Of a stretch of DNA of 64,000 bases, positions 6,168 through 62,077 are shown in pieces. The DNA comes from Candidatus Poribacteria bacterium (lineage in GTDB: Bacteria > Poribacteria > WGA-4E > WGA-3G), in the NCBI GenBank assembly GCA_958295815.1, contig OY282374.1:2004856-2068855 (forward strand), in the 5' to 3' direction. The translations under genes and the position numbers were made by a program. Positions within the stretch are counted from its first letter, which is position 1; each line of letters begins with the position of its first letter. Below the pieces are notes generated by a model, which did not search any database, was not told the origin of the DNA, and worked only from the letters and a program-made list of their open reading frames with translations.

Positions 6168-6170
6168 TAC

Positions 6171-7763: not shown

Positions 7764-10340
7764 TTAGGTGCGTCTGAGATCAATTCGACGCAGGGCAATA
7801 TCTATAAGCAACAAAAACAGAGCAGTGATGAGCAAGGGTCGCCACAGATGGATGCGAAGCATAACAGGTTCTTCAGGAGAACGGAACGCCGCTTCTGGTG
7901 AAGCGTTGAATTTACCGTCCGACACCGCTGCGAGTTGCGTTAGAAGGGACTCGTTAGTGTTGTGAACGAGGTATTCTCGCGGGTAAGAGACAACAGTCCC
8001 CGTCACTTGCGTATTGACGATTTTGTTTCCCTGTTTCTGCCTGATGTTCAGGAAATAAGGTCCCACATCTTGCGTTGGGAAATCGAGTTCATATCGTCCT
8101 GGTGCGGTCTGCGTGACAGCGAGTTCCCTTTTTTTAAGATCGGGTGAGATGAGGGAGACCTCGCTTTTAAGTTCGTTGAGAAAATCCCCAGAATCATCAA
8201 GGGCATCAATTGCGAGGTGAGCGATACCTTTTTCTTGGCTAATTTCTGCTTGGAAATTGCTGAGCGTCGCCTTCCGCATCGTGTCGCGCACCAACTGCGT
8301 CCAGAACTTGCCATATCCGGACCATTCCAACCAATCTGATGCCCAACGGGCTTTGGCATCAGAAGTGAAAGCTACGGATTTCCCCAAACCGTATTGCCAA
8401 CTCGCGAGAAGTGGGTCACCGCGGTCGGAGACGAGAAATATCTCGGCGGTTGGTCGCGGTTGTGTAGCGACATAACCTAACAGGAACGGTGCGAGTTCAA
8501 GGTCTATGCCGCTCAAAACCTGCGTCGGTTTAATGTATTGTGGAATGAAAGGTTCGTCAATAATCGCGGATTTGGAGGCTGTAACAGTCTCCTTTGCAAA
8601 GATCTGTGGAATGTTATACGGATCTTGAGTGAAATATTCTCGCCCACCACCCCAATTCGCGAGATTGCCCAGCAGGTTCATATCAGCCCCACTACCGATG
8701 CCGACTGTTGAAACGGTGATGCGATTCGCTTGCATAGAACTCGCGATCCCATACCAATCTCCACCTTGGGACTGTCCATCACTGAGCACAATGACGTGTT
8801 TGAGTTTCGCCGTTGTCTCGGTTAGGGCAAAATATGCCTGTTCGAGTGCAGGATAAAGATTTGTGCCTCCGCCTGCTGTGATTGAACCGATCTGATCTGA
8901 GAGGTATTGTTTGTCGGAAGCATCGTGTATATCTGAAATCCAGAACGGTGAACCATCGAATGCGACGACTCCGATTTTATCACGCCGACCCAACAGTTCG
9001 ACGGCAGCTCGTGATGCCTCTTTCGCTAATTCAATCTTAATGCCACCCATACTCCCGGATTTATCGATAACCAAGACCATCGCCAGAGAGGGGGTTTCCT
9101 TCTTCTTTTCCGTATCGGTGCGGACGGGTAAAATTGCTTCAATAGGGGTTTTGTAGTAGCCTCCGAGTCCGAAACTGTTTTCGCTACCGAGCATCATGAA
9201 ACCGCCGCCGAGGTCTTGGACATAGGTTCGGACAAGTTCCATTTGATTTTGGGTGAGTCGGTTTGCTGGGACATCGCTGAAGATAACGAGTTCATAGTTT
9301 TGCAGATCGGCGAGTTCATTCGGTACACCTAACCCGTTGCGGACATCGACGCGGATTTCTGCGTCCTCAAGCGCACGCGCAAGGTAACGGGCTTGCGATT
9401 CGTTCTCATCTATTAAGAGGACTTTCGGTTTACCCGTAACAGCGACAATGCCGAGTGCCCGGTTGTTATCGTAGCGGGTGTCCTTCGTTGTACGACAGAT
9501 GGCATCGTAGGTAAGGGTGCCACTCTCCGTAGCTGTTTCGGTGAATACCACTCGATTTTCGCCTTCCTCAAGCCGAACCTCCTGTTTAGCGACCTCAAAT
9601 TTGTTCTTAAAAAGACGGATTTCCGCCAAATCATCGTGGTTACTGTGGATAAGGACCTCCACATTGAACGGAGTGCCCTGTTTGATTTGTGCCGGAGCGT
9701 CAATCCGTTCCAGCATAACTTCTGGATCATCGTTCGGGTATATCGGTACAGTGTCGATCTGTACGCCGAAATCTTTGCCGCGAAGTCCGGTGTGAATTGC
9801 GTCTCCCTGTGTCTCAATACCGTCGGTGATTAGGACGATGCGTTTATTCGCATTTGCGGTAAAGATACCCCAAGCAGTCTCGATTGCCTGTGCGATGTTT
9901 GTCGTGTCACCGGCGTCTTCATCTATTTCCAGCCACGTTTTCTTGATTTCAGCGAGTTGCAATTCTGCATTCGGTTTATCCCCACTTTTCAATGAGGTAT
10001 CAACGACTTCCGTTCTGTCGGTAAATGTCATGAGACCTGCTTGCTGATTGCTATCGCGCGATTTCAGTGCTATGTTGATATAATCCGTCGCTTTTGTCAA
10101 ACCGTCCTCGGATATGCTATCTGAAATGTCTACCAAAAACATGACCGCTAATTTTTCGTCGGTTTTCAGATACTGGAGACCTGCAATACTTAGGATAAGC
10201 AACACGACAATAATGATCCGGGTGATTAAACTCATCACGCGCTGCGTTCGCGACAAATCCACGAGACTACGACGGTAACCGTAGTAGAGGAATGGTAGCA
10301 GTAAGAGCAGTAGAAGTAGGAGAGGACGTGTAATTTCCAT
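7764..10340 (-). CDS. Membrane protein with two VWA domains and a central GATase1-like domain
   Basis: About 858 residues from the chosen ATG at 10340 (MEITRPLLLLL). A longer form from 10448 overlaps the upstream gene and was rejected, although neither start has a strong ribosome site. Two N-terminal membrane segments are followed by a first VWA domain (FLVDISDSIS, MIDAS DxSxS). Then comes a class-I glutamine-amidotransferase-like segment (KVLLIDENESQARYLARAL to GLGGYYKTPI) and a second VWA domain with canonical MIDAS (VIDKSGSMGG, later GGGTNLYPAL and LSDGQSQGG). A last membrane helix precedes the basic end RRIDLRRT. This layout is known from BatA-neighbour proteins in MoxR operons of Planctomycetes-like bacteria. 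It is the last gene of the six-gene operon. It probably works at the inner membrane as a metal-dependent protein-binding scaffold. Confidence 0.85.
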   Translation of the reverse strand: MEITRPLLLLLLLLLPFLYYGYRRSLVDLSRTQRVMSLITRIIIVVLLILSIAGLQYLKTDEKLAVMFLVDISDSISEDGLTKATDYINIALKSRDSNQQAGLMTFTDRTEVVDTSLKSGDKPNAELQLAEIKKTWLEIDEDAGDTTNIAQAIETAWGIFTANANKRIVLITDGIETQGDAIHTGLRGKDFGVQIDTVPIYPNDDPEVMLERIDAPAQIKQGTPFNVEVLIHSNHDDLAEIRLFKNKFEVAKQEVRLEEGENRVVFTETATESGTLTYDAICRTTKDTRYDNNRALGIVAVTGKPKVLLIDENESQARYLARALEDAEIRVDVRNGLGVPNELADLQNYELVIFSDVPANRLTQNQMELVRTYVQDLGGGFMMLGSENSFGLGGYYKTPIEAILPVRTDTEKKKETPSLAMVLVIDKSGSMGGIKIELAKEASRAAVELLGRRDKIGVVAFDGSPFWISDIHDASDKQYLSDQIGSITAGGGTNLYPALEQAYFALTETTAKLKHVIVLSDGQSQGGDWYGIASSMQANRITVSTVGIGSGADMNLLGNLANWGGGREYFTQDPYNIPQIFAKETVTASKSAIIDEPFIPQYIKPTQVLSGIDLELAPFLLGYVATQPRPTAEIFLVSDRGDPLLASWQYGLGKSVAFTSDAKARWASDWLEWSGYGKFWTQLVRDTMRKATLSNFQAEISQEKGIAHLAIDALDDSGDFLNELKSEVSLISPDLKKRELAVTQTAPGRYELDFPTQDVGPYFLNIRQKQGNKIVNTQVTGTVVSYPREYLVHNTNESLLTQLAAVSDGKFNASPEAAFRSPEEPVMLRIHLWRPLLITALFLLLIDIALRRIDLRRT

Positions 10341-10404
10341 GGTTTTATTTCGGTCGTGTCGTGTTAAAATCAAGAGTTGCGGCACGCGGAGGGTGCCTAC
10401 TACT

Positions 10405-12483
10405 TTAATCGATTCTTCTTCGTTGATACAAAAACCATTCCACAGCACTCAGTCCGACCGCAAGAAATACTAAGTAAAACCATGGTGGGTAGCGTAAGAG
10501 AGCAGCACTGCTTGGCAATACTGATTCGGCTAACAAGTTTTCAACCGCTGGATCGGGACCGATGTGGGACTCCATTTCGTCAGCAAGGTTAACAGCCCAT
10601 AATATTCCACTATTCTGTTCCATGGAAGCGGTTGCCTCTGGTAAGGAATTTGCTTCTGCTATAGGTGCTGCAGGTTCTGGTGGCGATGTTTCCTTAAGTT
10701 TCAATTCGTAAAAACCGGCAATCTGGGTCTGATCGAAAAGGATCTCGTCATGTTCAATAGAGATTTCCCATGTTTTATCTCCAGGTCCAGTGATTTTTAC
10801 ACGCTCTGATACATTTTGAGGCGAGTCTGTTTTGGCTTCTGATGCCGATTGAGAGATTGCAGCTGTCGGTTCGATTCGTTGCTTAAGAATTTCCCCTGTC
10901 TGCAAATGGTATTCCTGAATCCGAGTGCCTTGCTGGAACCACTGAATCATGTTAGCGATGATGACAGGGAATGCGATGCGCAAGGGTAGGTCAGATTCCA
11001 GAATATTGATGGCTGCAAAGACAATTTTCCGATTTGGTACTGTATTAACGAACAGCACGGGATCTTCAAACGAACGGGCGAGGATTTGTGCTGTTGGAGG
11101 CGGTGTAACCTGATATGCCTCGCCGATTAGGACGTTTTCCAAGTGGACATGACGTAGGATTGGGTGGTCCTGCTCCCACTCTGTAATGATTGGTGTTTCC
11201 AGTGGTTCGCCTATTTTCCAGTTCAGTTCCGTATTCGGTGATTCTGAAGACGGTGAAGCAGCAGGTGGATAGATAAACATGTAATTGCCGTTCCCAAGCG
11301 TCTCTGGGCTGTATCGATCGAAGATAACAATCTGATAGTTATTCTCGACGTTTGGGCTGCGGTTTTCAGAAGACACGTTCGATTCATACTTTATTGGCGT
11401 GACGACATTCAGCTTAAGCTTCTCATCGACAGCGAGTGCTTTTTCAAGGAACGGATTTCCTTCTGTCACAAGCAAAACGGGGATAAGTTCTCGTTTAGGG
11501 AGTGTCGCATAGGCGATGTTATCAGTAGGTAGTGCGTCATTCACATCTAAAATTGCTTTGAGTTTTCCGCCTTCAAAGGCAAAGTTCCTGAATATTTCGG
11601 ATTTACTTTCGCCAGGGGCAAGCGTGTAAGGGCGGACATCAAAGAGGTCATCCTTGAAATAGAGTTCAACATTAAACTGTTTCTCTTCTTCTGAGGCGTT
11701 GATGACGTTTAATAGGGTTTCGTAATCGAAGGCGTTAACGATGCTCTTTCTGACTCGAAATTGCGTGATCCCGACATTATCGCGCGCTTTTCCGACCCGT
11801 ATAAGACGGAGTTTGGTTTCTTGATCTGATTTTTGGGGATCTTTGTCCTGTTGGGCTTTGTTGTTAAGTTTGGCAAGCAGTGTTTCAGAAATAGACTGAA
11901 AATCGCTAAAAACAGTAATTTTGGGGTTGGGCTTGGTTTCGGCGATAGCGTAGGCTAAGTCTATGACAGGCTCAAGGTCCGTGCTAATGTCAGTCTGCTG
12001 GATTGCTTCAATAGCCTCACGCAGTGACTTCTGATGACTGGTAAATGGACTGTGAATTGTAGGACGTTTGTGCGAACTAATCACCGTCATTTCGTCCATG
12101 AAGCGCAGACCTTCTACCGTTCGGAGAGCGTGTTGTTTCGCAGATTCGAGCCTCGTTAATCCGTCTGGTTTTTCAATCGTGTTCATGCTCGCAGACTGGT
12201 CAATAATTACAACAAGCTGCTGCGCGGATTTCGTTATGAACGCAAACTGCGGCTGTGCGATAGCAAACACTAAAAGTGCCAAGAATAGCAATTGTAGTAG
12301 CAGCGATAGCAGATGCTTCAGTCTCTGAAACAGTGATGTGGTCTGTCTTTCTCTGAAAAGTTCTTCCCAGAACATCAGCGTGGAGACAGGAGCGCGCCGA
12401 CGCCGTAGTTTGAGGATATACAACGCGATGATCGGGAGAGCCAACCCAAATAGAAAAAGAGAGGTGGGAGATAAAAAATTCAT
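10405..12483 (-). CDS. BatA-type VWA membrane protein
   Basis: A 692-residue protein with the N-terminal BatA (aerotolerance regulator N-terminal) module. This has a first helix (SLFLFGLALPIIALYIL), basic loop KLRRRRAPVSTLMFWEELFRE and second helix. A VWA domain follows with MIDAS VVIIDQSASMNT (about residues 90-101). The middle is a long beta-rich, CARDB-like extracytoplasmic region. A C-terminal membrane helix (YPPWFYLVFLAVGLSAVEWFL) ends in a basic tail. It starts 17 bases after the DUF58 gene. With MoxR and DUF58 it makes the standard Bat set. A second BatA-like gene is at the right edge of the window. Confidence 0.85.
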   Translation of the reverse strand: MNFLSPTSLFLFGLALPIIALYILKLRRRRAPVSTLMFWEELFRERQTTSLFQRLKHLLSLLLQLLFLALLVFAIAQPQFAFITKSAQQLVVIIDQSASMNTIEKPDGLTRLESAKQHALRTVEGLRFMDEMTVISSHKRPTIHSPFTSHQKSLREAIEAIQQTDISTDLEPVIDLAYAIAETKPNPKITVFSDFQSISETLLAKLNNKAQQDKDPQKSDQETKLRLIRVGKARDNVGITQFRVRKSIVNAFDYETLLNVINASEEEKQFNVELYFKDDLFDVRPYTLAPGESKSEIFRNFAFEGGKLKAILDVNDALPTDNIAYATLPKRELIPVLLVTEGNPFLEKALAVDEKLKLNVVTPIKYESNVSSENRSPNVENNYQIVIFDRYSPETLGNGNYMFIYPPAASPSSESPNTELNWKIGEPLETPIITEWEQDHPILRHVHLENVLIGEAYQVTPPPTAQILARSFEDPVLFVNTVPNRKIVFAAINILESDLPLRIAFPVIIANMIQWFQQGTRIQEYHLQTGEILKQRIEPTAAISQSASEAKTDSPQNVSERVKITGPGDKTWEISIEHDEILFDQTQIAGFYELKLKETSPPEPAAPIAEANSLPEATASMEQNSGILWAVNLADEMESHIGPDPAVENLLAESVLPSSAALLRYPPWFYLVFLAVGLSAVEWFLYQRRRID

Positions 12484-12500
12484 TGGGTTTTTCTCGAGTG

Positions 12501-13391
12501 CTAAGAGACGAAGCCGCCCATCCTGAAAATGCGGAGAATGAGTTCCTCGAACGGTGATTCTGTCGTCGTCCGCACAAGACCTATTTCGCGTTGCGTGCAG
12601 TATAAATCCATGTCATCGCAATATTTTTGGAAAAGTGCTTGATACCGCTTGAGATGATTCTCGTTTATGGTGACCTGACGCAGCTGGTTTGTCTCAACAT
12701 CAACAAGATGGTAGTCACCGAGTAGATCAGGGGCGACTTCTTTCTGGTCAATGATGTGGATCACAAAGAGTTCATGTTTTTGAAACTTCAGGACATTCAA
12801 CCCATTGGCAAATCCGCTGCGATCAAAGAGATCGGAAATCAGAACAATGAGACCACGGCGTTTCGTTGTGTGAACAAAATTGTGGAATGCGTTCTCTAAA
12901 TCGGTCTCGCCAGTGCCGGTCGTCTGATCAAGGAAGTTGAGGACGGTAAAGATTTTACCTTTGCCACGTTCTGTCGGGAGTCGATTTACGCCGGTATTGT
13001 TGAAGGTGGTAATGCTAATCCGATCAAGATTAGACAAGCCGATGTAGGCGAGTGCAGCGGCGACGCGTTTGGCATAAATTAGTTTTGACGGTGCACCGTA
13101 CGCCATTGACTCACTGGCATCAACGAGAAAGTAGATATGCAGATCCTCACGTTCTTCATAGAGTTTTAGCAGGAGTTCGTCCAGACGTGCGAAGGCGTTC
13201 CAATCAATGTAACGAAAGTCGTCACCAGCGGTATAGTTCCGGTAATCGGCAAATTCGACGCTGACGCCACGGCGTGTACTACGACGCTCCGCCTTGATAC
13301 GTCCGGCGAAAATCTTTTTTGAGACAATATAGAGATATTCAAGTTTTTTGAGGAATTCGCTGTCGAAGGCGGACTGTGTATCGTTCATCAT
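12501..13391 (-). CDS. DUF58 domain protein of MoxR system
   Basis: A 296-residue DUF58 protein. Hallmarks are GVSVEFADYRNYTAGDDFRYIDWNAFARLDELLLKLYEEREDL (about residues 44-86) and a VWA-like core with FLVDASESMAYG. The start codon overlaps the MoxR stop by four bases (ATGA at 13391-13388), so translation is coupled. DUF58 proteins are thought to pair with MoxR AAA+ ATPases as substrate or adaptor partners; the exact task is unknown. The paralogue at 62078-63049 has the same motif block. Confidence 0.92.
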   Translation of the reverse strand: MMNDTQSAFDSEFLKKLEYLYIVSKKIFAGRIKAERRSTRRGVSVEFADYRNYTAGDDFRYIDWNAFARLDELLLKLYEEREDLHIYFLVDASESMAYGAPSKLIYAKRVAAALAYIGLSNLDRISITTFNNTGVNRLPTERGKGKIFTVLNFLDQTTGTGETDLENAFHNFVHTTKRRGLIVLISDLFDRSGFANGLNVLKFQKHELFVIHIIDQKEVAPDLLGDYHLVDVETNQLRQVTINENHLKRYQALFQKYCDDMDLYCTQREIGLVRTTTESPFEELILRIFRMGGFVS

Positions 13392-14371
13392 TGAATCTCT
13401 TCCAGCAGATGATGGATGATGTCGTCCGGGTTGATCCCTTCTGCCTCACCTTCAAAACTCAGAATCAGACGGTGCCGCAGACTTGGCAGTGCGACGACTT
13501 GAATATCCTCACGGGCGACGTTGTATCTACCATCGAGAATTGCCCGGACCTTCCCGCCGAGAATCAACGCTTGTGCACCGCGTGGGCTGGAACCGTAACG
13601 GACGTATTTCTTCGTGAGTTCGGGTGCCTCTTCCGATTCAGGGTGTGTACCCAGCACCAATCGTAGGGCGTACCTGCGTACGTCTTCAGCGATGAGGATG
13701 TCCCGGACGCTCTGTTCCAACATGTTAATCTGCTCGCCATCGCAGACTTTATCAACAGTAGGCATCTCTCGTTTGGTTGTCCGTTCCATGACGAGGTCAA
13801 GTTCGTCAAGGCTTGGGTATTCAACCTTGAGTTTGAAAAAGAAGCGGTCGAGTTGTGCTTCGGGCAAGGGATATGTGCCCTCCATCTCCAAAGGGTTTTG
13901 GGTCGCCATGACGAAGAAAGGTAAATCTAATCCGTGATGCCGTCCTGCGACTGTCACGGATTTCTCTTGCATTGCCTCTAAGAGCGCGGATTGTGTTTTG
14001 GGGGTCGCACGGTTGATTTCATCGGCGAGAATGAGATTGGAGAATATGGGACCTTGTTGGAATTCAAAGAACTTGCGTCCGCCTTCATCTTCAGCAACGA
14101 TGGTGGTGCCGATGATGTCCGCGGGCATCAGATCGGGTGTAAACTGAATACGGGAGAATCCGAGATCCAACACCTCGTGTAGCGTCCGGATGATCAAGGT
14201 TTTTCCTAACCCAGGGACACCTTCTAAGAGGGCATGCCCGCCAGTCATAAGGCAGATCAGAACGCCTTCAATGATTTCCTTTTGTCCGACGATTCGCTTG
14301 GATATTTCTTGTTGTATTTTCAGGAAGGTTTCACGGAATTCTTTGTATTTTTGTTCGGCTTGTTCGGACAT
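13388..14371 (-). CDS. MoxR-family AAA+ ATPase
   Basis: A 327-residue AAA+ ATPase. Walker A is GVPGLGKT, within GGHALLEGVPGLGKTLIIR. Walker B is ILADEINRATPKTQSALLEAMQE, then sensor 1 MATQNP and a sensor 2 region GSSPRGAQAL. Start is ATG 14371, preceded by TAGGAAG; an in-frame extension to 14437 has no support and would cover a palindromic repeat. Length is typical of the MoxR/RavA-like APE2220 type. MoxR ATPases remodel or activate VWA-containing partner proteins, and the partners here are the three downstream genes. Confidence 0.92.
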   Translation of the reverse strand: MSEQAEQKYKEFRETFLKIQQEISKRIVGQKEIIEGVLICLMTGGHALLEGVPGLGKTLIIRTLHEVLDLGFSRIQFTPDLMPADIIGTTIVAEDEGGRKFFEFQQGPIFSNLILADEINRATPKTQSALLEAMQEKSVTVAGRHHGLDLPFFVMATQNPLEMEGTYPLPEAQLDRFFFKLKVEYPSLDELDLVMERTTKREMPTVDKVCDGEQINMLEQSVRDILIAEDVRRYALRLVLGTHPESEEAPELTKKYVRYGSSPRGAQALILGGKVRAILDGRYNVAREDIQVVALPSLRHRLILSFEGEAEGINPDDIIHHLLEEIQ

Positions 14372-14397
14372 GTTTCTTCCTAAGATTATGGAGAATT

Positions 14398-14415
14398 CGG
14401 GGTTAGAAACCGCTC
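14398..14415. repeat. Degenerate GGTTAGAAACC palindrome copy
   Basis: GGGGTTAGAAACCGCTCC contains the palindromic core GGTT-AGA-AACC also found at 40145-40165 and, more decayed, at 55391-55410. It lies in the MoxR leader. Confidence 0.5.
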
Positions 14416-14451
14416 CTACATGTGAATATAACTTCAAACGCTAAAGGGTGT

Positions 14452-14486
14452 GTGGGAAACAGAAGGACAAATACCTTGTCTCCCAC
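14452..14486. other. Intercistronic hairpin between DUF4175-like and MoxR genes
   Basis: GTGGGAAACA (from 14452) pairs imperfectly with TGTCTCCCAC (to 14486), with an inner AGG/CCT pairing around a 7-base loop. It lies 10 bases after the stop of the upstream operon gene. No T-run follows on the minus strand, so a processing or stabilising stem is likelier than a terminator. Confidence 0.4.
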
Positions 14487-14495
14487 AACTTTGGC

Positions 14496-15974
14496 TTACT
14501 CATCTTTGGGTTTAATCGATTCAAAGTAACGTTTCACGTAGAATTTATAACCCAATGGAATTTGCTCTTGGATGAGGGCGTCCTCGGAGAGTTTCTGGTA
14601 CTTAGAGTAGGCATCTTTATAGCTTACGGCAGATTGCTGTCCCTCTGCGGATGCTTTAGAGGTCTGGACAGTAGAAGCCCCTTCTCCCTGTACACCGGTA
14701 ATTTGTTCAAGGTTTAGGGCGGAATCGAGTGAGCTTAGTTGACCGAGTTGACTCGCTGAGGTCATATTGCCGATACCGGTACTCGGTGAGGTGCTTAGTT
14801 TATAGGTTAAGCCCGTAGCCGTATTAACGGTGTTACAGGCACCAGCAATACCAGCTTTGCAAGTCTCACATTCAGACAGTAGTTTTGCCAATCGCAGGTT
14901 ACGATTTTTGAGGAGTGCGAGATCACGAATCTTTTTGCTTGAGGCGCGCAGTCGGAGCTGCGTACCTTCGAGGTCATCGCCATCCAGTGCTTCCCCTGCA
15001 CCTGAAAGTTCGGACCCAAGCCCGTCAAGTTCTGAGCCTTGCAAACTATTTCCGCCCCGCTTAAGTGCATCGGAAAGGTTTTGACGTTTTTCTTTGTCAA
15101 ACTTAGGGACATTTTTGGTCACATTGTCAAGTTTCGATGCAGCTTGTTGGTAATCACCGCGTTTCAGCTGCTGTCCAAATTCACCGAAATAGGGATTGCC
15201 GATGAACTGTTGCCCTAATCCTTTCATTAGGTCTTGCTGCTGTGCTATCTTGAGCGGATCAATCTTCGTCTTCAAGAGCGCGCTCAGTTCTGTCATTCGT
15301 GCGAGTGCTTCTTTAGGGGTAATCTGTGGTTTCTTCAATTCAAGTGCGCGTTTCTCAAGCTCTTTTAGCAGTTCCTCAAGCTCCGCATCCTTGTCCTGTT
15401 CGGCTTCCTTTTTTGCCTCTTCAATCTGTTTCAACAGGACGTCTGCCTCAGCTGCGATTTGCGGTGAAAAGTCGATTTCTGTGGAAGTTGCTGAGGGTGC
15501 GAAGAATTCAACGAACGAAAAAGCGATCAGGAATATGGCTACAAGCGCGATAAATTTAGTTTCACGCGGTATCGCATAGCGTACGATCTGATTCATGGAG
15601 ACCGCTTGTATCTTGTTAGAGGTATCCTGAAGTTGAAGCGAGGTAAGGGATTCATCGGTTTTCTGTTGAATTTGTTCCAAGCAGCTTATGACGCGATCCT
15701 TAAGGGATGCCCCTATATCAATCGTCCGTGCTGCCTCGTAAAGGCTCACTGGTCGGATAAGACGCACCACCATGGCACTCACGGCGATCCCCAGGACCAC
15801 CCAGAGAAAAACCAGTGGTGGGACGTTAAAAGCTGTGACGCTATCAACGATCACTAATGGGACACATGCTAAAAATCCGTAAAAAAGAAACGTCGCAAAT
15901 GTCTGAAAGTACCGTTGGATGTTCAGACGGTGGCGGACGTGTCGGATTTTTTCAAGAATCAATTTTTCGTCCAT
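14496..15974 (-). CDS. DUF4175-like membrane protein with long coiled-coil region
   Basis: A 492-residue protein. Two N-terminal membrane helices (about residues 24-45 and 52-70) are followed by VSLYEAARTIDIGASLKDRVISCLEQ, a block typical of DUF4175-like proteins beside MoxR operons. A third helix lies near 135-152. A charged coiled coil follows (about 170-215; EEAKKEAEQDKDAELEELLKELEK) and then a Gln/Gly/Ser-rich helical stretch. The start ATG 15974 has ATAGGAGAAAA. It lies between the giant TPR gene (46 bases after its stop) and MoxR. Membrane-anchored scaffold is the best guess; the family name is from memory. Confidence 0.7.
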   Translation of the reverse strand: MDEKLILEKIRHVRHRLNIQRYFQTFATFLFYGFLACVPLVIVDSVTAFNVPPLVFLWVVLGIAVSAMVVRLIRPVSLYEAARTIDIGASLKDRVISCLEQIQQKTDESLTSLQLQDTSNKIQAVSMNQIVRYAIPRETKFIALVAIFLIAFSFVEFFAPSATSTEIDFSPQIAAEADVLLKQIEEAKKEAEQDKDAELEELLKELEKRALELKKPQITPKEALARMTELSALLKTKIDPLKIAQQQDLMKGLGQQFIGNPYFGEFGQQLKRGDYQQAASKLDNVTKNVPKFDKEKRQNLSDALKRGGNSLQGSELDGLGSELSGAGEALDGDDLEGTQLRLRASSKKIRDLALLKNRNLRLAKLLSECETCKAGIAGACNTVNTATGLTYKLSTSPSTGIGNMTSASQLGQLSSLDSALNLEQITGVQGEGASTVQTSKASAEGQQSAVSYKDAYSKYQKLSEDALIQEQIPLGYKFYVKRYFESIKPKDE

Positions 15975-16020
15975 TGGATTTTCTCCTATCCGTGTTTTCT
16001 AAGGTGCTTTACGTACTTAG

Positions 16021-19000
16021 TTAATTCTCCTCTGAATCGCTGACATTTAAATCTGAAAAGGGAACTTCATCTGTGTCGGTAAGCCGTAGATAGAATCCTA
16101 AACCGGCCATCTCACTACAGACTTTAACGAGGATACTGTTTTTTCCTGCCTTGAGAGTTACCGGAATGGTATCTTGGTCCATTCCTGAGACATGGGCTTC
16201 ACTGTGTGTGAACACCTCTTCGCCATTCACCCAAAGCTTTGCCTGAATACCACCACCGAAGCGTAGTTGGGCTTTTCGGTCGTCCGGTGAATCCACGGTT
16301 GTCCAGGCATAAGCGGTATTCCAATTGATGGTTTTGTCAAAAATTTCGCGGAAATTAACAAAACCGTCATAAGTATCATCCGCCTGTTTCTGCCAACTCA
16401 CCTTCTCATCTACTCCATCGTACTTGGTATCTGTGTTGATTTCTGTGGTGTCTTCTGGGATGTATGCCTTATTATAGCCGATTCCACCGGTGTTGTCAAA
16501 TGGACCAATAATCCACCAAGCACTTTCAGCAATGAAAGCAGTTTTGTCCATATACGCTTGTGCTTTTTCAGGATCGGTTTCGTGGAAGAATTGTGCCAGC
16601 GTGATGTTGGCGTGTAGTTTGGTAGTGGGATTACTGGAAGGGAGGTTAACCAATTTATTTACCATTTCAACGTAACGCACTTCGTCTTTAGCGTTCTTGC
16701 CAGCTTGAGCAACGCGTGCCCAGAACTCCCTTGTCGCATCTGTGTGAAGGGAATAGCTTTGACTTATGCCGTTCATACTACGTTTGAATTGTTCAAATGC
16801 TTCTTCGTACCGGTCATTGGCAACGTATGCCTGACCCAGTGTTGAGGCTTCATACCAACCAATCCTCATCTGTGAGGCGCGTTCAGCGAGTGTTAACGCC
16901 GTTTCCGGCTTGATGTTTTTCTTGAGAAGTTGTTCTGCCAGGCTGCGATATCCCCAAGACCGTTGTTCGCGGTTCGCCTCTTTTAGTCGAATTGCCATCC
17001 ATTCGGCGTATAGGGCATCAGATTTTTCTGCATTGTCTGTTTCTTTGTAGGCATCGCCTAACAGTTCAAGTAGCACGGCTCTCGTCTGTCCCTTCTGGTC
17101 AAAAGCCGACTTCAGTTCTTCAAGGATAGTGATACCTTTATCCTCTTGATCTTTGTCAGCATAAAGTTTCCACATAGCTCGGAGTGCTCTATCGTATTCG
17201 CGATCTTCAAGTGAAGCATCCAATGCCCGACGATATACCGCATTAGCTTCTGATAGCCGATCACCTTTCATATAGGTTTGTGCTAACAGGTCGTAGAGTT
17301 GATATGAAGTTGGCTCAAGGTTAATCGCTTTCTCATACGCAGCAGTTGCCTTCGCCAATTGGGTTGCTTCATCTACCTGACGCGATTTTTGAGTAAGGTC
17401 GCCAATTTTTTTCTGCCATTCAGCGTTGTCGGGCTGCAGTTCACTGATTTTCTCGTATTGCGCGATGGCTTCGTCAACCCTATCGCTGAATTCATAAGTT
17501 TGTGCAAGGTCGAAGTATGCGTCGGGATCATCAGGGTTTTCCTTAATTTTTTGCAACTGTTCGGGAATTTGCTTTTCGTAAAGGTTGCCCTCTCTATATG
17601 CCCTGCGTATTGCTATGTCTGCTTTTCTGCGCATCTCATCGTATCTGGCAGCATTCTTCACCTGTTGGTAAGCATTGACAGCTTCTTCGTATCGTTTCGC
17701 ACCCAGGTAGCTTTTCCCAAGAATCTGGTGTAAATTCTCCAAGCCTGAGGAGAAACCGCTGAACCTTCCGCTCGCAGCAACTGCTTTTTCGCCTATCTTA
17801 ATGGCGGCGTCATACATTTCACCTTGAACACAGATAGATGCGATTGCCATGAGGAACCACATATCCGGTCCACGGTTGTGTGTTGAGAGCGCGATCTCGC
17901 CTTGATTTAACATTTCTTTCGCACGATCAGGTTGGTTACTTTTCTGGAACGCAGCGGCAGCGTAATAAAAACCGCGGGCGTTGCCGGGCTGCGCTTTGCA
18001 AAGGACTTGATATGCCTCCGCAGCCATTTCATGGTTGCCCGCATTTCGGTGAATCTCAGCAATCATTTCCAGAATTGCTGGATTCCCGGCATCCTTTTCG
18101 AGTCTGCTTTCAAAGATAATTCTCAACGCTTCAAGTTTCCCCTGATTTTTATAAGCGTTAATGAGATTTTCGCGGGCTTCATCACCAGCAAACAGGACCT
18201 TGACACCGAATGGACCCGTATGCATTGACATACTGCTTGATCCGGGCTGAGATGCTGTCTCATAGAGTTCCATTGCCAAATCGTTCTCACCAATCTGGAC
18301 GTATAGCTGCATCAAGTCGTTGGTGATGCTGTTTCTGTCCCATCTTTGTGGTGTCAGATCTAATGCTTTCTTGTAAGCCTCGATTGCTTTTTCTAATTCA
18401 CCTGCGTTACGATAGTCTTGGGCACGCTCACGTTGCATCTGAAACGTCAGGGTGCCTGCCTCTTCCGCCTGTTTCAGCATCTCTTCTAACTTACCTTGGC
18501 GGCGGTAAAGCTGCACTAACTGTCGCTCAATATTCTGTCGTTCCCACTCCTGTCCAGTGTGTTGAATGGCTTCCCCGTATGCGTTTTCGGCACCATCCAA
18601 GTCATCTTTACGGAGATACAACTGCGCCAGTTCCAGATATGCCTTTCCGTCACCGGTGCCAAGTTCAACAGCTTTTTTATAAGTGGTAATGGCGTCATCG
18701 AGCTTGTCTTCCGCAGCGTAGAGTTTTGCGAGACGTAGGTAGTGGAAACTACTTTCAGGATCCGCTTTAATGTATTGCTGTGCGAGTTGAAGTGCTTCAG
18801 TGATGTTATCAGCCTCTTGATAGGTATTAACGAGCCCATCCTGATACTTTGTATTCTCTGGATCGGCTTCGAGCAACGCTTTCCAGACATCTATCGCCAT
18901 ATCGTGCTTATTTTGGCGCGTATAAAGGGTGGCAAGCTGCGCCCGCGATTCAAAGTCTTCAGGCATAATTTTTACGATCTGTTCGTAAATCTCTACTGCC

Positions 19001-22000
19001 TTCTTGACTTCTCCTTGCCGCTCATGCTGCTGTGCTAAGGCGCGCTGCGTCCCGACATTGAATTTTTCTGTCTTTTTAGCCATTTGCGTTGTTTTTGCTA
19101 ATCCATCGCGTCGCCGTTTAATCTCCATCAGTTGCCGTTGTGCGGTGTCTCGAGTCCACCGTTGTACCGAGAAGTCATTAAGGATTTCCGTAAAGAGAGC
19201 TTCGGCATCGTCCCACATTTCGTTTCCCATGTATGTGTTGGCGACCTGTTCTTTCTCATAGAAAGCCCCACCTCTTTGCAAAAGACGTATCGCACCCATT
19301 TTACGAAATGTGTCCTGCGCCTTCTCTTTCTCACCTTTCTGCGCGTAGATTGTGCCAAGTTTTTGGTAGCTCTCCGAAAGTCCCCATGTATTTTGTAGTG
19401 ACATTTTTGCAATTGCGGATTCAAGCAGATGGAGTGCACGCTCTCGGTCATTTGCACCGCGGTAGGCATCTGCCAGGCTGTTGAACCACTGTCCGTTCAC
19501 TGACGCTGCGTCATTGTCAAGGAGACGGCTAACAAGTATGTCTGAACCTTCAAGATCGTTCGCTGCAATTTTCATTGACGCGACGAGGTAAAGTAACGAT
19601 AGTTCCTCTGGCTTCTCGGCGAGTTTTGCTTCATACTCCGTTACCAATTCTTCTATCCCACCGGATGCTTTGTGAAGTTCGGTGAGTTTGGAAACAATTT
19701 CGACTTGGACATAAGAATTTTGCGCGAGCATTGCAGCCTCAGTTTCCAACTTTTCGCGCAAGAACTGAATCGCCTTCTCAGGTTTACCCGCAGCAGCGTA
19801 ACCGGATGCCAAGTCAGTATATGTGTGGTGCTGGTTCGGATGGACCTCAACAATCTTTTCATAGATTTCGATACCTGCTTCGGTTTGGTTATTTTCGATG
19901 CACCGCCGTGCTACAGTCTGTGCGAAATCGTTGCCGAAGTTTCTACCGACAGACGGCACGATGAGTCCCTTTGCGAGTGAAACGAGTTCATCGACCATAC
20001 CTGCTTGGAAGTAGGTATCTATTGCCTCCCAGAAGTTATAACCGAGGGCATTGGGGTTGTCTCTGAGGAGGGTGGTGAACTGAGTAGCAGCGGCTTTCGC
20101 CTGACCACTCCGCTGCAGCATCTGGGCATACCGTTGGCGGGTCATGCTATCCTTGGGACGCAGCACGAGTGCAGCTTTAAAAGCGTCGGATGCTTTTTTA
20201 AGTTGATTTGTCCCTTCATAGAAGGTTGCCAACCTAACCTGTGCTTGGAACGAATCTGGGTTTTTTTCGACGGCTTCGACCAATTGTGGTTCACGTTCTC
20301 GTACGACTTTAGAACGTCCAACCGTCCGTGCGGCTTGCTGGAAATGCCACGAGTACAACGTCCGACCGTAGCGATCGCGTTGGTTCGCGAAACGTAGGGC
20401 GCGTTCTGCGAGTCGAGCGGCATCCTGTGCCCGACCGAGTTCTTCTAAATGCTGACTCAATTCTATTAAGAAGTTTGGATCGCGTTGGGACATCGCCAAT
20501 GTCATGGCTTTTTTTGCGATAGCAATTGCATACTGTGTGAGACCGCTCTGTTGGAGTTTTTGAGAAAATTGATGCAACTCTCGGGCACCAATCGGCGAGT
20601 TCAGCACTTTTGTTATTAACTCACGGACGGTAATTGTGTCGCCTGTGTGCGCAGCAAGTTGGAGTGTTAGGTCATAGTATTGTCTGCGATTTCTGGCATC
20701 TACGCCAGCGAGTTCTTCAAGCAAATCCAACGCAGTGGCGTGCTGTCCGGTTTGGATAGAAGCAAAAACGGTGTTGAGTTTGAGAGTGAGGTCGTTTGGA
20801 AATTCCTGTTGCAGCGCGGAGAGGATTTCTTGTGCCTTATCGCGCTGCCCTTCCCACCAAATGCAGTAGCTGAGTGCCAAACCGGGATAAATTCGATCCC
20901 TGCCTTTCGCTGCGTCCAACTTAGTCTGTAATTTGGTATACAACGCCTCCTGCTGATTTAATGACCGCAACTGACTGTAAACCTGCTGGAGAAACTCTAA
21001 ACGGTTCTGATCGTAATAAGTTGTGGGTGAAGGGTAGCTGGACTGAAGCGGCGCGTACCCTCTGAAGGATTGTGATGCGGATGCGAGTGTCGCAACGCTC
21101 CTTGCATTTGCAGCGGATGGTTGCGTTCGCTCAAAGAACGTCCAGTATAGTGTTATGGCTTTCTCGCTTTGTCCTTCACGTATATAAGCGGTCGCGAGAC
21201 TCTGATAGATGCCTTTATATTGGCTCCACTGTCGCTGTATAGGTGATTGCTGCCATGTTGTTGAGGTGCGAGGTCTTGGGTAGAGTGGTGGCATCGGAAG
21301 TTGTGCAAGAATTTTCTCTGCTGCATCAGTCTTACTTATCTGTGCGAGAGCAGTCACTAACATCGCACCGGTGCTAAGGTCAGTGATCTGTGCCTCTTCA
21401 ATCTCCGTCAAGAGCTTTTCAGCAGCTGCCTTCTGTCCACGACGATAGGCGTTGCTGGCGTATTGTGCGATATACCAAAGCCGTGCCTCAGTGGTTAGAT
21501 TGGTCATCTCATCAAGGTGTTTTTTCAACGTTTCATAATCAATGTTCCGTTGTATGGCTTGATTCAATCGCAAACTTTGATAGACTGGATCGTTTGGAGA
21601 TGCCGCAAATAGTCGGTCTGTCGCTTCCTTAGTTTTATCAGTGTTTTGCGTCAAGGTATAAATCTGCGCTAACCTTTCAAGCGTCTGGATATTCTTCGGA
21701 TTTGCAGCGGCTTCTGCCTCAAGTTGTTCGATCAGTTCACCCAATTTGCGCTGCTGTTGCGCGATTATTATTAGCTGGACGAGAGCACCTGCTTGTGCCT
21801 CTTCAAAATCGCGTGGTATCCACTGCCTCGCACTACTCTGTCCAAACGATTGTCCCTGAATGTTCCAGATGAGGTTTTGTGGGAGATTGAATTTCTGTGT
21901 GTTAATTCCTGGTGGTCCGAATGTTGAGCGTGATGAGCTTCCCATGACGTTTTGGGTTGCACTTTCAGGTGGTTTGGACATATCCAGAATCCGTTGGAAG

Positions 22001-24858
22001 TGTGGTTGTGCGCGGTCGAATTCATTCATCTGAACCAGTGCTGCACCGAATTGGTAAAGCGCGATGTGTGAGTTCTGACCTGTTATTTTTTCTGCAGCAC
22101 GATCAAGGACGGAAAGTGCTTCATCAAGCAATCCGTGCCGAATGAGTAAAGTTGAGAGTTTAATTTCTGCCTCAAGCGGCTGATTTTTTGCGTGGAGCAG
22201 TTTCGTCCACGCCTGAATTGCTTCCTGTTCGCGTCCGATATCAAATAGCAATTCCCCAAGTCGTTGTTGATGGCTGGGATCGGGTTGTGCTTTCGCGAGT
22301 CGTTCTTGATACGTGAGAGCCTCTTGGGTATCGCCGAGGTCAAGGCTAACTTTGACAAGTTGCGCTAATAGATCCGGGTTCTCGCGGTTCCTATCTAATG
22401 CTCGTGCGAGTTGAAAACGGGCACTCGGTAAATTGCCTTCTGTCTGATAAAGTTCCGCCAATGCAACGACAGGACCTACACTGGACGTGTCCGTTTTTGA
22501 CATCTGCTTTAAACGCTCTTCCAACTCCCGACTTCGTCCCAAGTCGTAATATGCTTCAGAGAGGGGCTTGACGAAAGCCAGTTTATCGTTGACGCTTGCG
22601 CTCAATTCCCAGCACCGCCAGTACTGCTCGATCGCTTGTCGAGGGTTCCCCGAAAGTTTGTAAACCGCTGCAAGTTCAGAACGCGTGTCGGTTGCTTCCG
22701 GTCGAAGGCGGATTGCCTGTTTGAGACTGTCAATAGCAGTTTGATAATCCGCAGTCTGTTTGGCGATTTCTGCCAGCATTTGATGCCCTTCAGGATTGCG
22801 TGGACTGTGTGCTATCGCCTGTTTCGCCGCGTCTGTAGCGGTATCAAAATCCATGACGCTTAGATGGGCGCGCGCAATGTTTGCGTAATATTCCCGGGCA
22901 TTCGCACTGTCAATCTCAATCAGGTGGGTGTAGATGGCGTCGGCTTCTTCGCGCAAACCTTGTCTGGCATAGACATCGGCGAGCCAACGGTTGACAAGCA
23001 CATCATCCGGGTGAAGGGCTTTCGTCTTCAAAAGGACTTCGATTGCGTAGGTGATATTACCCAACTTAAGGTACATCTTGGCAAGTTGTTTCTGCTGCGT
23101 GAAGGTATCGGCATCCGTAACATCTTGCTTTTTAAGTTCTGACTCTAATGCTTCTATTTTTTCAACAAGTGTCCCTTGTCGCCTATAGATTTCGATTTGC
23201 CGATCAGCCATCTGTTCGACGAAAAATTCGTTCGGTGCGAGTCTGGTTGCTTCAGCGTACTCTGACAACGCTTCGTCGTAGTCCTTGTTTTCCGTGAGTT
23301 GTCTCGCCAAAGCCTCGCGATAGCGGTAGGCATCAGGTGCTAACTCAACTGCTTTTCGACTCGCTGCAATAGCTTCGGATCGGAAATCCTTGACATCGAG
23401 TAATTGTGCCAACCTGTCATAATTCTCAGGCGTGCCGTTTTCACCAGCAACCATTCCGTTCCATGTTTCCACAGCCTTCTGTCGGTTTCCTTGACGAAAG
23501 TAGAATTCACCGAAATATTCAATATGATCCAGATTGTTAGGTGCAAGCGAAATCGCTTTTTGGTAGGCTGCGACTGCATCGTCTATCCACTCGTTTCCAG
23601 CGTAGATTTCAGCGAGCGTGAGATACGTGCCCGAATTTTCTGGGTCTCGGTCGAGCATACGCTGATATGTTATCCTTGCTTTGCTTTCGTCTTCTAATTG
23701 CAAGTACAATTCACCGAGTTCACGGTAGATGCCAAAATCGTCAGGGTTTTGTTCACTGAGGGATTCATACGCGGCTGCGGCGTCCTCAAATTTCTCGGCA
23801 TTTCGCAGGGCAGCAATTAGATTGAGTCGGAGTCCTACATCCGTTGGTGCGAGTTCCACTGCCTGTTGATATGTGGTGATGCCTTCGTCAGGTTGCTGGT
23901 TCTCAATGTATGAGGAAGCCAGCAAACCCATCAGCTCCGGGTCGTTCGGTGTGTTTTCAAGCTTTCCTTGATAGTGTGTGACTAAGCCTTCCCAATTGCT
24001 GGCAGCAGCGTAGATGCCGATGATGCGGTGTTGGAGGTCTTTCCGCAGCCAATTCCCGGGTGCTGTCAATGCCATGGCAGTGTCGTAACTTTGAATGGCG
24101 TCTTCATAATTGCCTTTCTCTTCGTGAATATTACCGATTTCTCGACGACTTAGACAGACCCGATATGGATCATCCGTTTTAAGTTCAATGATCGCTTCAT
24201 GCTGTGCGATGGCTTGTTCATAGAGTTCCTGTTCTCGGAAAAGGTCTGCGAGTTCAATGCGGGCGAAGATATTCTCTGGGTCGAGTTCAGGGATTTTTTT
24301 CCATGCCGAAATCGCCTCATCAACACGGTCTCGACTGAAGTAGGCGCGCCCAAGTGCCTCATAAATATCCATTAGTTCTTCGGGGGATGCAGCTTGGGTC
24401 TGTTCCGACAGTTCTGCTGCCTTCGTTAGTTCACGGATTGCGTCCTCATGCTGACGCAACGTCGCGAACATCTGTCCCAAAGCGAAATGCGGGTAATAAT
24501 TGGTTGGGGCGAGTTCAACAGCGCGTTGATATGCAGTAACAGTCTCAATGTCCTTGCCAAGCCGTTTGTAGGTATGCCCCAAAATAAGTTGGACGTTTGA
24601 GTCGTTGGGTTTGGCTTCTACCTCTGCCGCATAATCGGCAACCATGGCATCTAAACCAGCTCCTTCGAGGTAAAACTGATAGAGTCGGTCAAACGTGCTC
24701 CCTTCTTTTGGGTTCCGGTTGAGCATTAACTTGTAGCGTTCGATGATTCTTGCGTCGTTCGTTTCATCTTGCGCAGAGGTAATTGGTAAAAAAAGCAAAG
24801 TACAGGATATAAGATACAGCACACCCATAAGAACTGAACATTTTTCTCGTCCGAGCAT
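16021..24858 (-). CDS. Giant secreted TPR-repeat protein (2945 aa)
   Basis: The largest gene here, 8.8 kb. An N-terminal signal peptide (hydrophobic VLMGVLYLISCTLLFLPI, cut near TSAQDE) puts it outside the cytoplasmic membrane. Almost the whole length is tetratricopeptide repeats, many with the canonical pattern such as AIAQYEKISELQPDNAEW and AVAAYQKAISLAPNNLDH. They form several superhelical arrays broken by a Ser/Gln/Pro-rich linker near residues 960-1010 and others near 1250. The last about 180 residues form a beta-sandwich (AESAWWIIGPFDNTGG, QAKLWVNGEEVFTH, GKNSILVKVC) like the carbohydrate-binding/PA14-like modules attached to glycosidases. The ATG is backed by a perfect AAGGAGGT. It heads the six-gene MoxR/VWA operon, so it may be the extracytoplasmic protein-protein scaffold of that system. 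Confidence 0.92.
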   Translation of the reverse strand: MLGREKCSVLMGVLYLISCTLLFLPITSAQDETNDARIIERYKLMLNRNPKEGSTFDRLYQFYLEGAGLDAMVADYAAEVEAKPNDSNVQLILGHTYKRLGKDIETVTAYQRAVELAPTNYYPHFALGQMFATLRQHEDAIRELTKAAELSEQTQAASPEELMDIYEALGRAYFSRDRVDEAISAWKKIPELDPENIFARIELADLFREQELYEQAIAQHEAIIELKTDDPYRVCLSRREIGNIHEEKGNYEDAIQSYDTAMALTAPGNWLRKDLQHRIIGIYAAASNWEGLVTHYQGKLENTPNDPELMGLLASSYIENQQPDEGITTYQQAVELAPTDVGLRLNLIAALRNAEKFEDAAAAYESLSEQNPDDFGIYRELGELYLQLEDESKARITYQRMLDRDPENSGTYLTLAEIYAGNEWIDDAVAAYQKAISLAPNNLDHIEYFGEFYFRQGNRQKAVETWNGMVAGENGTPENYDRLAQLLDVKDFRSEAIAASRKAVELAPDAYRYREALARQLTENKDYDEALSEYAEATRLAPNEFFVEQMADRQIEIYRRQGTLVEKIEALESELKKQDVTDADTFTQQKQLAKMYLKLGNITYAIEVLLKTKALHPDDVLVNRWLADVYARQGLREEADAIYTHLIEIDSANAREYYANIARAHLSVMDFDTATDAAKQAIAHSPRNPEGHQMLAEIAKQTADYQTAIDSLKQAIRLRPEATDTRSELAAVYKLSGNPRQAIEQYWRCWELSASVNDKLAFVKPLSEAYYDLGRSRELEERLKQMSKTDTSSVGPVVALAELYQTEGNLPSARFQLARALDRNRENPDLLAQLVKVSLDLGDTQEALTYQERLAKAQPDPSHQQRLGELLFDIGREQEAIQAWTKLLHAKNQPLEAEIKLSTLLIRHGLLDEALSVLDRAAEKITGQNSHIALYQFGAALVQMNEFDRAQPHFQRILDMSKPPESATQNVMGSSSRSTFGPPGINTQKFNLPQNLIWNIQGQSFGQSSARQWIPRDFEEAQAGALVQLIIIAQQQRKLGELIEQLEAEAAANPKNIQTLERLAQIYTLTQNTDKTKEATDRLFAASPNDPVYQSLRLNQAIQRNIDYETLKKHLDEMTNLTTEARLWYIAQYASNAYRRGQKAAAEKLLTEIEEAQITDLSTGAMLVTALAQISKTDAAEKILAQLPMPPLYPRPRTSTTWQQSPIQRQWSQYKGIYQSLATAYIREGQSEKAITLYWTFFERTQPSAANARSVATLASASQSFRGYAPLQSSYPSPTTYYDQNRLEFLQQVYSQLRSLNQQEALYTKLQTKLDAAKGRDRIYPGLALSYCIWWEGQRDKAQEILSALQQEFPNDLTLKLNTVFASIQTGQHATALDLLEELAGVDARNRRQYYDLTLQLAAHTGDTITVRELITKVLNSPIGARELHQFSQKLQQSGLTQYAIAIAKKAMTLAMSQRDPNFLIELSQHLEELGRAQDAARLAERALRFANQRDRYGRTLYSWHFQQAARTVGRSKVVREREPQLVEAVEKNPDSFQAQVRLATFYEGTNQLKKASDAFKAALVLRPKDSMTRQRYAQMLQRSGQAKAAATQFTTLLRDNPNALGYNFWEAIDTYFQAGMVDELVSLAKGLIVPSVGRNFGNDFAQTVARRCIENNQTEAGIEIYEKIVEVHPNQHHTYTDLASGYAAAGKPEKAIQFLREKLETEAAMLAQNSYVQVEIVSKLTELHKASGGIEELVTEYEAKLAEKPEELSLLYLVASMKIAANDLEGSDILVSRLLDNDAASVNGQWFNSLADAYRGANDRERALHLLESAIAKMSLQNTWGLSESYQKLGTIYAQKGEKEKAQDTFRKMGAIRLLQRGGAFYEKEQVANTYMGNEMWDDAEALFTEILNDFSVQRWTRDTAQRQLMEIKRRRDGLAKTTQMAKKTEKFNVGTQRALAQQHERQGEVKKAVEIYEQIVKIMPEDFESRAQLATLYTRQNKHDMAIDVWKALLEADPENTKYQDGLVNTYQEADNITEALQLAQQYIKADPESSFHYLRLAKLYAAEDKLDDAITTYKKAVELGTGDGKAYLELAQLYLRKDDLDGAENAYGEAIQHTGQEWERQNIERQLVQLYRRQGKLEEMLKQAEEAGTLTFQMQRERAQDYRNAGELEKAIEAYKKALDLTPQRWDRNSITNDLMQLYVQIGENDLAMELYETASQPGSSSMSMHTGPFGVKVLFAGDEARENLINAYKNQGKLEALRIIFESRLEKDAGNPAILEMIAEIHRNAGNHEMAAEAYQVLCKAQPGNARGFYYAAAAFQKSNQPDRAKEMLNQGEIALSTHNRGPDMWFLMAIASICVQGEMYDAAIKIGEKAVAASGRFSGFSSGLENLHQILGKSYLGAKRYEEAVNAYQQVKNAARYDEMRRKADIAIRRAYREGNLYEKQIPEQLQKIKENPDDPDAYFDLAQTYEFSDRVDEAIAQYEKISELQPDNAEWQKKIGDLTQKSRQVDEATQLAKATAAYEKAINLEPTSYQLYDLLAQTYMKGDRLSEANAVYRRALDASLEDREYDRALRAMWKLYADKDQEDKGITILEELKSAFDQKGQTRAVLLELLGDAYKETDNAEKSDALYAEWMAIRLKEANREQRSWGYRSLAEQLLKKNIKPETALTLAERASQMRIGWYEASTLGQAYVANDRYEEAFEQFKRSMNGISQSYSLHTDATREFWARVAQAGKNAKDEVRYVEMVNKLVNLPSSNPTTKLHANITLAQFFHETDPEKAQAYMDKTAFIAESAWWIIGPFDNTGGIGYNKAYIPEDTTEINTDTKYDGVDEKVSWQKQADDTYDGFVNFREIFDKTINWNTAYAWTTVDSPDDRKAQLRFGGGIQAKLWVNGEEVFTHSEAHVSGMDQDTIPVTLKAGKNSILVKVCSEMAGLGFYLRLTDTDEVPFSDLNVSDSEEN

Positions 24859-25262: not shown

Positions 25263-25844
25263 TCACAATCCAATAACTACGATTCCCATAGCCAGCATCA
25301 ACACGCCCATGATGATATAAAAGATCGGGGTAATCTTATTTATTTTTGTCTCGTGGGTCTGATAATACTCGGCAACTGCTTTTACAATTTCATCCAAGAC
25401 GGGTTTCCCGCTGCGTTGTTTCATTTTTATCTGTGCAGTTCCTATCCATGATTGAACTGCAACTTGCAATTCCAGATCGTGTGAAGTGAGTTTAATATGC
25501 CCTAACGTTTCTTCAAATGGAATGTCTAACTTTTGCAGCACATTGTGGAGTGCGGCACGGAAGGATTCATCGGTAATCCCCATAGCTATGTATCCCCTTA
25601 TCGCAATTGCCATAACGATCATAACCACGACAACTATTAGGATATTAATCAGCATAATAGGATTTTCAGATACAGAAGGCATACCGAGTGGCAAGACTAC
25701 CGCAGGGGAAAAAGCTACCGCTAAAAACGCCAAAATCCATTTTGCACTAAAAAGAAGCGGACGTCGAGCAGCCATAACGCGAATTCCAATCGCGAAAAGA
25801 AATAAGGCTTCAACAAAACAGATGAGTATGAGATATTCAATCAC
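25263..25844 (-). CDS. Hypothetical inner-membrane protein
   Basis: A 193-residue protein with about four membrane helices: an N-terminal one (LILICFVEALFLFAIGIRV), two in the middle (SAKWILAFLAVAFSPAVVLPL and LINILIVVVVMIVMAIAI) and one at the C-terminus (IFYIIMGVLMLAMGIVVIGL). A soluble helical segment lies between helices 3 and 4. I chose the GTG at 25844 because AGGGAGAA lies 8 bases upstream; a longer reading from ATG 25934 lacks a ribosome site. Family not recognised. It stands alone, with empty gaps of about 400 bases on both sides. Confidence 0.65.
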   Translation of the reverse strand: MIEYLILICFVEALFLFAIGIRVMAARRPLLFSAKWILAFLAVAFSPAVVLPLGMPSVSENPIMLINILIVVVVMIVMAIAIRGYIAMGITDESFRAALHNVLQKLDIPFEETLGHIKLTSHDLELQVAVQSWIGTAQIKMKQRSGKPVLDEIVKAVAEYYQTHETKINKITPIFYIIMGVLMLAMGIVVIGL

Positions 25845-62039: not shown

Positions 62040-62077
62040 AATGTGGTTAGGGGTGACATAAGGGGTATAATTAATAA

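Follow-up and report, generated by a model that had tools for sequence, protein, structure and literature searches.

Across Candidatus Poribacteria, a giant TPR protein, predicted to be exported, is inherited together with a cluster of MoxR and VWA genes, and comparison of sequenced relatives gives good support to the view that this cluster forms one unit. In the window, the 64,000-nucleotide stretch analysed here, which lies in the 5.13-Mb single-contig genome of a sponge symbiont, the cluster comprises six minus-strand open reading frames at 7764-24858 encoding the TPR protein, a 492-aa protein (P0002), MoxR, a DUF58 protein, a BatA-type VWA protein and a double-VWA protein (P0006). Bat/MoxR operons often include a TPR protein (BatB/E type), which is normally small; 2945 aa is far above the usual size. 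The kind of operon is already known, and the new part is the co-inherited giant TPR that multiplies in relatives. The features are as follows.

16021..24858, minus strand: giant TPR protein, probably exported, 2945 aa; signal peptide at ~residues 1-29, cleavage site placed by eye
16069..16539, minus strand: C-terminal jelly-roll domain of the TPR protein, ~residues 2774-2930; GH2 sugar-binding-type fold
14496..15974, minus strand: P0002, 492 aa; three hydrophobic segments, a long helical part and a conserved C-terminal YVKRYFESIKP; without Pfam family
14451..14487, minus strand: hairpin, from folding, in the 124-base gap before MoxR
13388..14371, minus strand: MoxR AAA+ ATPase; frame opens to 14437, start corrected
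12501..13391, minus strand: DUF58 protein with a VWA-like MIDAS motif
10405..12483, minus strand: BatA-type membrane protein with VWA, from Pfam, hydropathy and motifs
7764..10340, minus strand: double-VWA/GATase1_like membrane protein (P0006); frame opens to 10448, start corrected

Pfam and NCBIfam searches of the six proteins returned TPR arrays, AAA_3 with AAA_lid_2, DUF58, BatA with VWA_2, and two VWA domains with GATase1_like. P0002 had been labelled DUF4175-like in an earlier note on this DNA, a label that was dropped since no DUF4175 match appeared in Pfam even at E≤1. Two starts were corrected: most MoxR orthologues align from residue 1 counted from the ATG at 14371, and full-length double-VWA orthologues mostly begin their alignment at residue 20-36 of the longer frame, which places that start at ~10340. 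The corrections leave gaps of 124 and 64 bases upstream of MoxR and the double-VWA gene, respectively, and with them the coordinates bear out the six genes and the spacing given in the earlier note. The claimed ATGA overlap of MoxR and DUF58 was found as four shared bases, and the claimed hairpin was also located, the 124-base gap having a folding energy of -33.4 kcal/mol versus -23.8 in shuffles (z -2.96). Intergenic repeats were considered as the origin of the false N-terminal extensions and rejected; every such sequence occurs just once in the window, and the one that was tried on all 255 loci matched solely the window's own locus.

MoxR scored 205.2 bits against AAA_3 and 44 bits against bpMoxR (cut-off 27 for both), with a P-loop, GVPGLGKT and not GXXXTAKS, that is identical in 27/27 aligned MoxR rows, its own row included. 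The DUF58 protein scored 133.6 bits, and the BatA-type protein 52.4 bits against BatA and the same against VWA_2. Among the aligned rows (27 MoxR, 26 DUF58, 25 BatA-type and 19 double-VWA, own copies counted), Walker and MIDAS motifs are retained, except that MIDAS is found in 24 of the 25 BatA-type rows, the remaining row being a gap. By plain hydropathy, hydrophobic segments are predicted at residues 25-43, 55-73 and 134-152 of P0002, 8-26, 58-76 and 668-686 of the BatA-type protein, and 36-54, 71-89 and 864-882 of the double-VWA protein; none are predicted in MoxR and DUF58. If the positive charges of the loop between the first two segments are kept inside, the VWA domains would lie in the periplasm. 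A cytosolic MoxR and DUF58, three membrane proteins and an exported TPR, as hydropathy predicts, would fit the envelope complex that had been suggested earlier.

The structure model of P0002 is weak (mean pLDDT 70.9, pTM 0.43), and no relatives of it were found in the viral contigs searched. Candidatus Poribacteria account for 33 of the 35 related loci with named genomes. In the other two the match is confined to the C-terminal part of P0002; one of these (L115) contains MoxR, DUF58, BatA-type and double-VWA genes, with no TPR match within 20 kb.

The giant TPR protein has a single hydrophobic segment of signal-peptide type (residues 9-27, plain hydropathy) and, by a crude consensus, 17 strong TPR-pattern repeats, compared to a mean of 0.4 and a largest value of 3 in 200 shuffles. 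Residues 2640-2945 were modelled by AlphaFold2 from 43 sequences as helices followed by a beta-sandwich (mean pLDDT 89.6, pTM 0.86). When the Foldseek matches were re-examined, the best solved matches to the sandwich were N-terminal domains of GH2 enzymes, with 6ldc at Z 12.2 and rmsd 2.7 over 129 residues; Glyco_hydro_2_N reached 24.3 bits in the sandwich, under the Pfam cut-off of 28. The 'carbohydrate-binding-like sandwich' described earlier is right as a fold, a GH2-type jelly roll in the predicted structure. In the giant TPR of G038 an AhpC/TSA redoxin domain replaces the jelly roll (L062:11148-11927), and the C-terminal end is evidently exchangeable. The C-terminal domain was also considered as a cluster-specific export tag and rejected: further proteins of this genome also contain it, including one that looks PSCyt-like by eye, as do g19 genomes without the cluster. 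These six g19 genomes have 5-10 matches each, and a module so frequent there is no specific tag. In genus g1, the best match to the C-terminal module is below 1e-130 in 20/20 cluster genomes and in 1/18 others (G019). Against plasmids, the TPR N-terminus gave matches of <60% identity, mostly TPR proteins where annotated. Searches with the N-terminus detected 87 TPR copies in 38 of 84 phylum genomes (1-4 per genome); the window's genome carries a single member of this TPR family, so TPR arrays are not needed. Upstream of the TPR gene, 25263-25934 encodes a small protein with four hydrophobic segments and without Pfam match; a DNA search left this site unmatched in 12 relatives, with one 76% stretch elsewhere in G035.

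The order of the genes is kept across three families. A synteny survey of the same phylum, set beforehand as a refuting test, found TPR to be the next upstream same-strand gene of the set in 24 of 25 loci bearing a P0002 orthologue in f1, f2 and f4; in the remaining locus (L057) the sequence reaches only 3.5 kb upstream. Of the 37 other P0002-bearing genomes, these loci represent 25; the remaining 12 belong to g19, and two of them (G081 and G068), read by eye, have other genes between TPR and P0002. This adjacency, together with co-inheritance across the phylum, upholds the earlier claim that the giant TPR is part of the MoxR cluster. As one transcript the operon is not strictly maintained, the double-VWA gene being unlinked from P0002 in G068 and the TPR genes remote from it in G079. 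Tight spacing is special to the window. In the 25 loci of relatives, TPR and P0002 lie 43-1683 bases apart (24 measured), the MoxR-DUF58 gap ranges from -11 to 1986 (23 measured), and BatA is >1 kb from the double-VWA gene in 11 of 16 measured loci; such loose spacing does not imply a single transcript there.

Several relatives carry additional large genes around the cluster. Eight of the 25 loci include part of a second giant TPR at their upstream edge, and G006 has four giant TPRs on one contig (open frames of 1944-3144 aa), with two WD40-group proteins upstream of the array, of which the one that was scanned has the TPR C-terminal region. WD40 or LRR-WD40 proteins are found near the cluster in G005, G032, G068 and G081. 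A protein of ~334 aa, hydrophobic by eye, occurs in the fetched loci of 17 compared genomes, for example between BatA and the double-VWA gene in G001, and was not found in the window. In G005 the cluster is elsewhere in the genome, and its usual place, with the flanks unchanged, is taken by ~9.6 kb of N (L208:9195-18776).

Co-inheritance was surveyed in 84 genomes of the phylum, searched for P0002, P0006, the TPR middle part, the TPR N-terminus and MoxR. P0002 is present in 38 genomes (identity at least 52%; next best at most 30%), P0006 in 40 (at least 65%; all others at most 37%), the TPR middle part in 39 and the TPR N-terminus in 38. MoxR of at least 82% identity is present in 43 (42 from the search plus G028, added by hand at 83% in L056), including four without the rest of the cluster. 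The TPR N-terminus, P0002 and P0006 are jointly present or absent with three exceptions, G015, G046 and G051. P0002 and the TPR N-terminus are both found in 37 genomes and both missing in 45, with only P0002 in G046 and only TPR in G015; for P0006 and the TPR N-terminus, 38 genomes have both, 44 neither, and two (G046 and G051) only P0006. In G046 the TPR is cut by a contig edge, G015 is 78% complete in 880 contigs, and G051 has the TPR middle part at 46%.

On a tree of PurL, a single marker gene run as a quick search without bootstrap for 70 of the 84 genomes (7 had no match, and 7 with partial or distant matches were left out), the presence of P0002 and the cluster requires 11 changes, and 10 of these are forced by well-supported branches. 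For P0002, 10 independent contrasts could be drawn: TPR differs in parallel in nine, in the opposite sense in none and not at all in one (sign test p 0.004). All seven PurL-nearest relatives of the window's genome lack the cluster. P0006 lies ~146 kb from P0002 in G068, the TPR genes lie ~346 kb from P0002 in G079, and in G038 MoxR-DUF58-BatA are on a different contig from TPR-P0002-P0006. Genes that are unlinked in these three genomes yet jointly present suggest a link that is more than adjacency, and a giant TPR kept or lost in relatives together with a membrane machine, itself one of a widespread and little understood class, points to one working unit.

The patchy distribution favours an old cluster that has been repeatedly lost whole, as read from the P0006 tree together with the cluster-less sites, some gains being compatible with the numbers of changes. 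In five relatives without the cluster (G022, G010, G012, G031 and G035) both flanks are retained, 0.9-2.4 kb apart compared to 18.7 kb here, with at most small unrelated ORFs between them. The P0006 tree, built from 39 of the 40 carriers (G051 left out), recovers g19, f2 and f4 as supported clades and g1 as one side of a weakly supported branch (59/43), with three group changes in all, the least possible. Recent transfer was rejected as the main cause of patchiness because this tree follows genus and family. Two neighbours were examined as candidate parts of the system and discarded: P0008 (6171-7481) and a 143-aa ORF (5736-6167) both adjoin P0006 in several genomes, but are present in 5/5 and 4/5 of the cluster-less genomes, respectively. 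Together, 5736-7481 encodes an AAA_15-type ATPase (best PADLOC match NsnB, 1e-44) and its 143-aa partner, which has no Pfam match; whether or not the cluster is present, relatives carry the pair, or just the ATPase, at the corresponding position.

Four g19 genomes without the cluster (G067, G074, G075 and G078) retain an 82-84% MoxR, which suggests that MoxR has some role without the giant TPR. In G078 this MoxR adjoins WD40 and LRR-WD40 proteins and two proteins with the TPR C-terminal region; G074 and G075 have large ORFs in the same place beside MoxR. In the outgroup G060, P0002-like, MoxR and DUF58 genes form a group, with TPR unmatched in 8.3 kb of sequence, and the same three are together in G061, where the contig ends inside the P0002-like gene. 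From these gene sets, the core looks older than its link with TPR.

Comparison with described systems places the cluster among Bat/MoxR operons, with which it shares a MoxR AAA+ protein, an adjacent DUF58 gene, a BatA N-terminus followed by VWA with MIDAS, a further VWA protein and a TPR gene. It differs in the ~3000-aa TPR, multiplied in relatives, and in the added 492-aa P0002; BatD had no match among the six proteins (Pfam, E≤0.001). BB0173 of Borrelia combines an aerotolerance-regulator domain with three membrane helices and a VWA in the periplasm, the same topology as predicted here for the VWA proteins (PMC5700661). The Rhizobium leguminosarum genes RL3499-RL3502 (cmdA-D), in which mutation alters the envelope and cell shape (cited in PMC5700661), are grouped with MoxR/VWA operons, but the passages on them in that source mention no giant exported repeat protein. 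The nearest working analogy would be the Bifidobacterium PFNA operon, where the gene for a large secreted fn3 protein lies directly before MoxR and DUF58, and whose authors suggest that MoxR may fold FN3 (PMC8430577). MoxR, DUF58 and a large secreted protein are common to both, secretion being predicted here from the N-terminus only. The PFNA operon differs in its kinase Pkb2, its transglutaminase-like gene and its Gram-positive hosts, and a TPR array goes unmentioned in the excerpt of PMC8430577; Pfam searches of the six proteins gave no match to a Pkb2 kinase or transglutaminase. The MoxR-vWA ternary conflict systems (VMAP, beta-propeller) likewise combine MoxR, vWA and a repeat-rich third component, but have other vWA architectures and another P-loop (PMC7159879); the VWA proteins here have hydrophobic segments at both ends. 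Among the matches listed in a search of literature titles, none concerned a giant TPR with MoxR.

We propose, at about even odds with all other readings combined, that a Bat/MoxR-type envelope machine assembles, loads or checks the exported giant repeat protein as its client. The six genes would then form an accessory MoxR/Bat-type machine, in which MoxR and DUF58 would work in the cytosol and drive the membrane VWA proteins. The BatA-type and double-VWA proteins would have inner-membrane anchors and expose their VWA domains to the periplasm, and P0002 could be a helical arm reaching into the same space. The giant TPR would be exported by Sec and handled in the periplasm or at the cell surface, with VWA domains gripping extended segments and MoxR cycles driving release. 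In other genomes the clients would be TPR paralogues and perhaps the WD40/LRR neighbours. It is these paralogues and the adjoining WD40/LRR proteins that make us lean to TPR as client.

The main rival, which takes up the earlier note's suggestion of TPR as an outer scaffold and which we hold to be rather unlikely, casts TPR as the support of a Bat complex whose targets would be other envelope proteins or stress damage, a role proposed for the smaller TPR proteins of Bat operons. Bat TPR domains have been proposed to hold a large complex (PMC3557215, PMC5700661), and the constancy with which one TPR stays beside P0002 in f1 genus g1, f2 and f4 (24/25) agrees with this role; up to four diverged giant paralogues with differing C-terminal ends (AhpC/TSA in G038) look more like diversifying products than a single scaffold. 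Less probable still is a sensing or conflict system, in which giant repeats outside the cell would bind partner or host molecules and the MoxR-VWA proteins would relay or deploy a response, as proposed for the MoxR-vWA ternary systems. In those systems MoxR and vWA are accompanied by a third component containing TPR and beta-propeller regions (PMC7159879), and the patchy presence of the cluster would suit such a role, but the six proteins gave no PADLOC match at E≤1e-5 and no Pfam effector domain, the VWA proteins (P0004-P0006) lack a beta-propeller in Pfam, and the P-loop is not the GXXXTAKS named in PMC7159879. Least probable, and quite improbable in our estimate, is that the genes are mere neighbours removed by one deletion. 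Joint absence does say little on function where adjacent genes can be lost in one event, and the five cluster-less sites resemble single deletions at a common place; against this stand the joint presence of unlinked genes in G068, G079 and G038 and the gene order kept in three families.

Broadening the client reading, one may imagine, tentatively and with more doubt than belief, that the giant exported repeat proteins of Poribacteria (TPR, with WD40/LRR in some lineages) have an assembly line of their own, in which an inner-membrane MoxR-VWA machine would build a surface or periplasmic structure for life inside sponges from clients that are interchangeable and multiplying. If true, the Bat/MoxR class would acquire a giant client dedicated to it. 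A part in sponge-symbiont contact has been discussed for TPR and other eukaryote-like repeat proteins (PMC3909097), and a very large TPR protein is now tied to a specific membrane machine. The role of MoxR-VWA (Bat) operons is still open; a study of bat deletions in Leptospira noted that 'Bat function remains elusive' (PMC3557215). With a large co-inherited partner and about ten independent contrasts, the question of the MoxR/VWA client becomes directly testable.

Other observations were made in the window and its relatives. The stretches L118:8381-11299 and L123:7846-10878 have similar starts. A UvrD-type helicase is encoded at 45462-47201, with a GIY-YIG match inside the helicase stretch. 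At 60105-63049, a second DUF58 gene directly follows a GAF-SpoIIE phosphatase gene.
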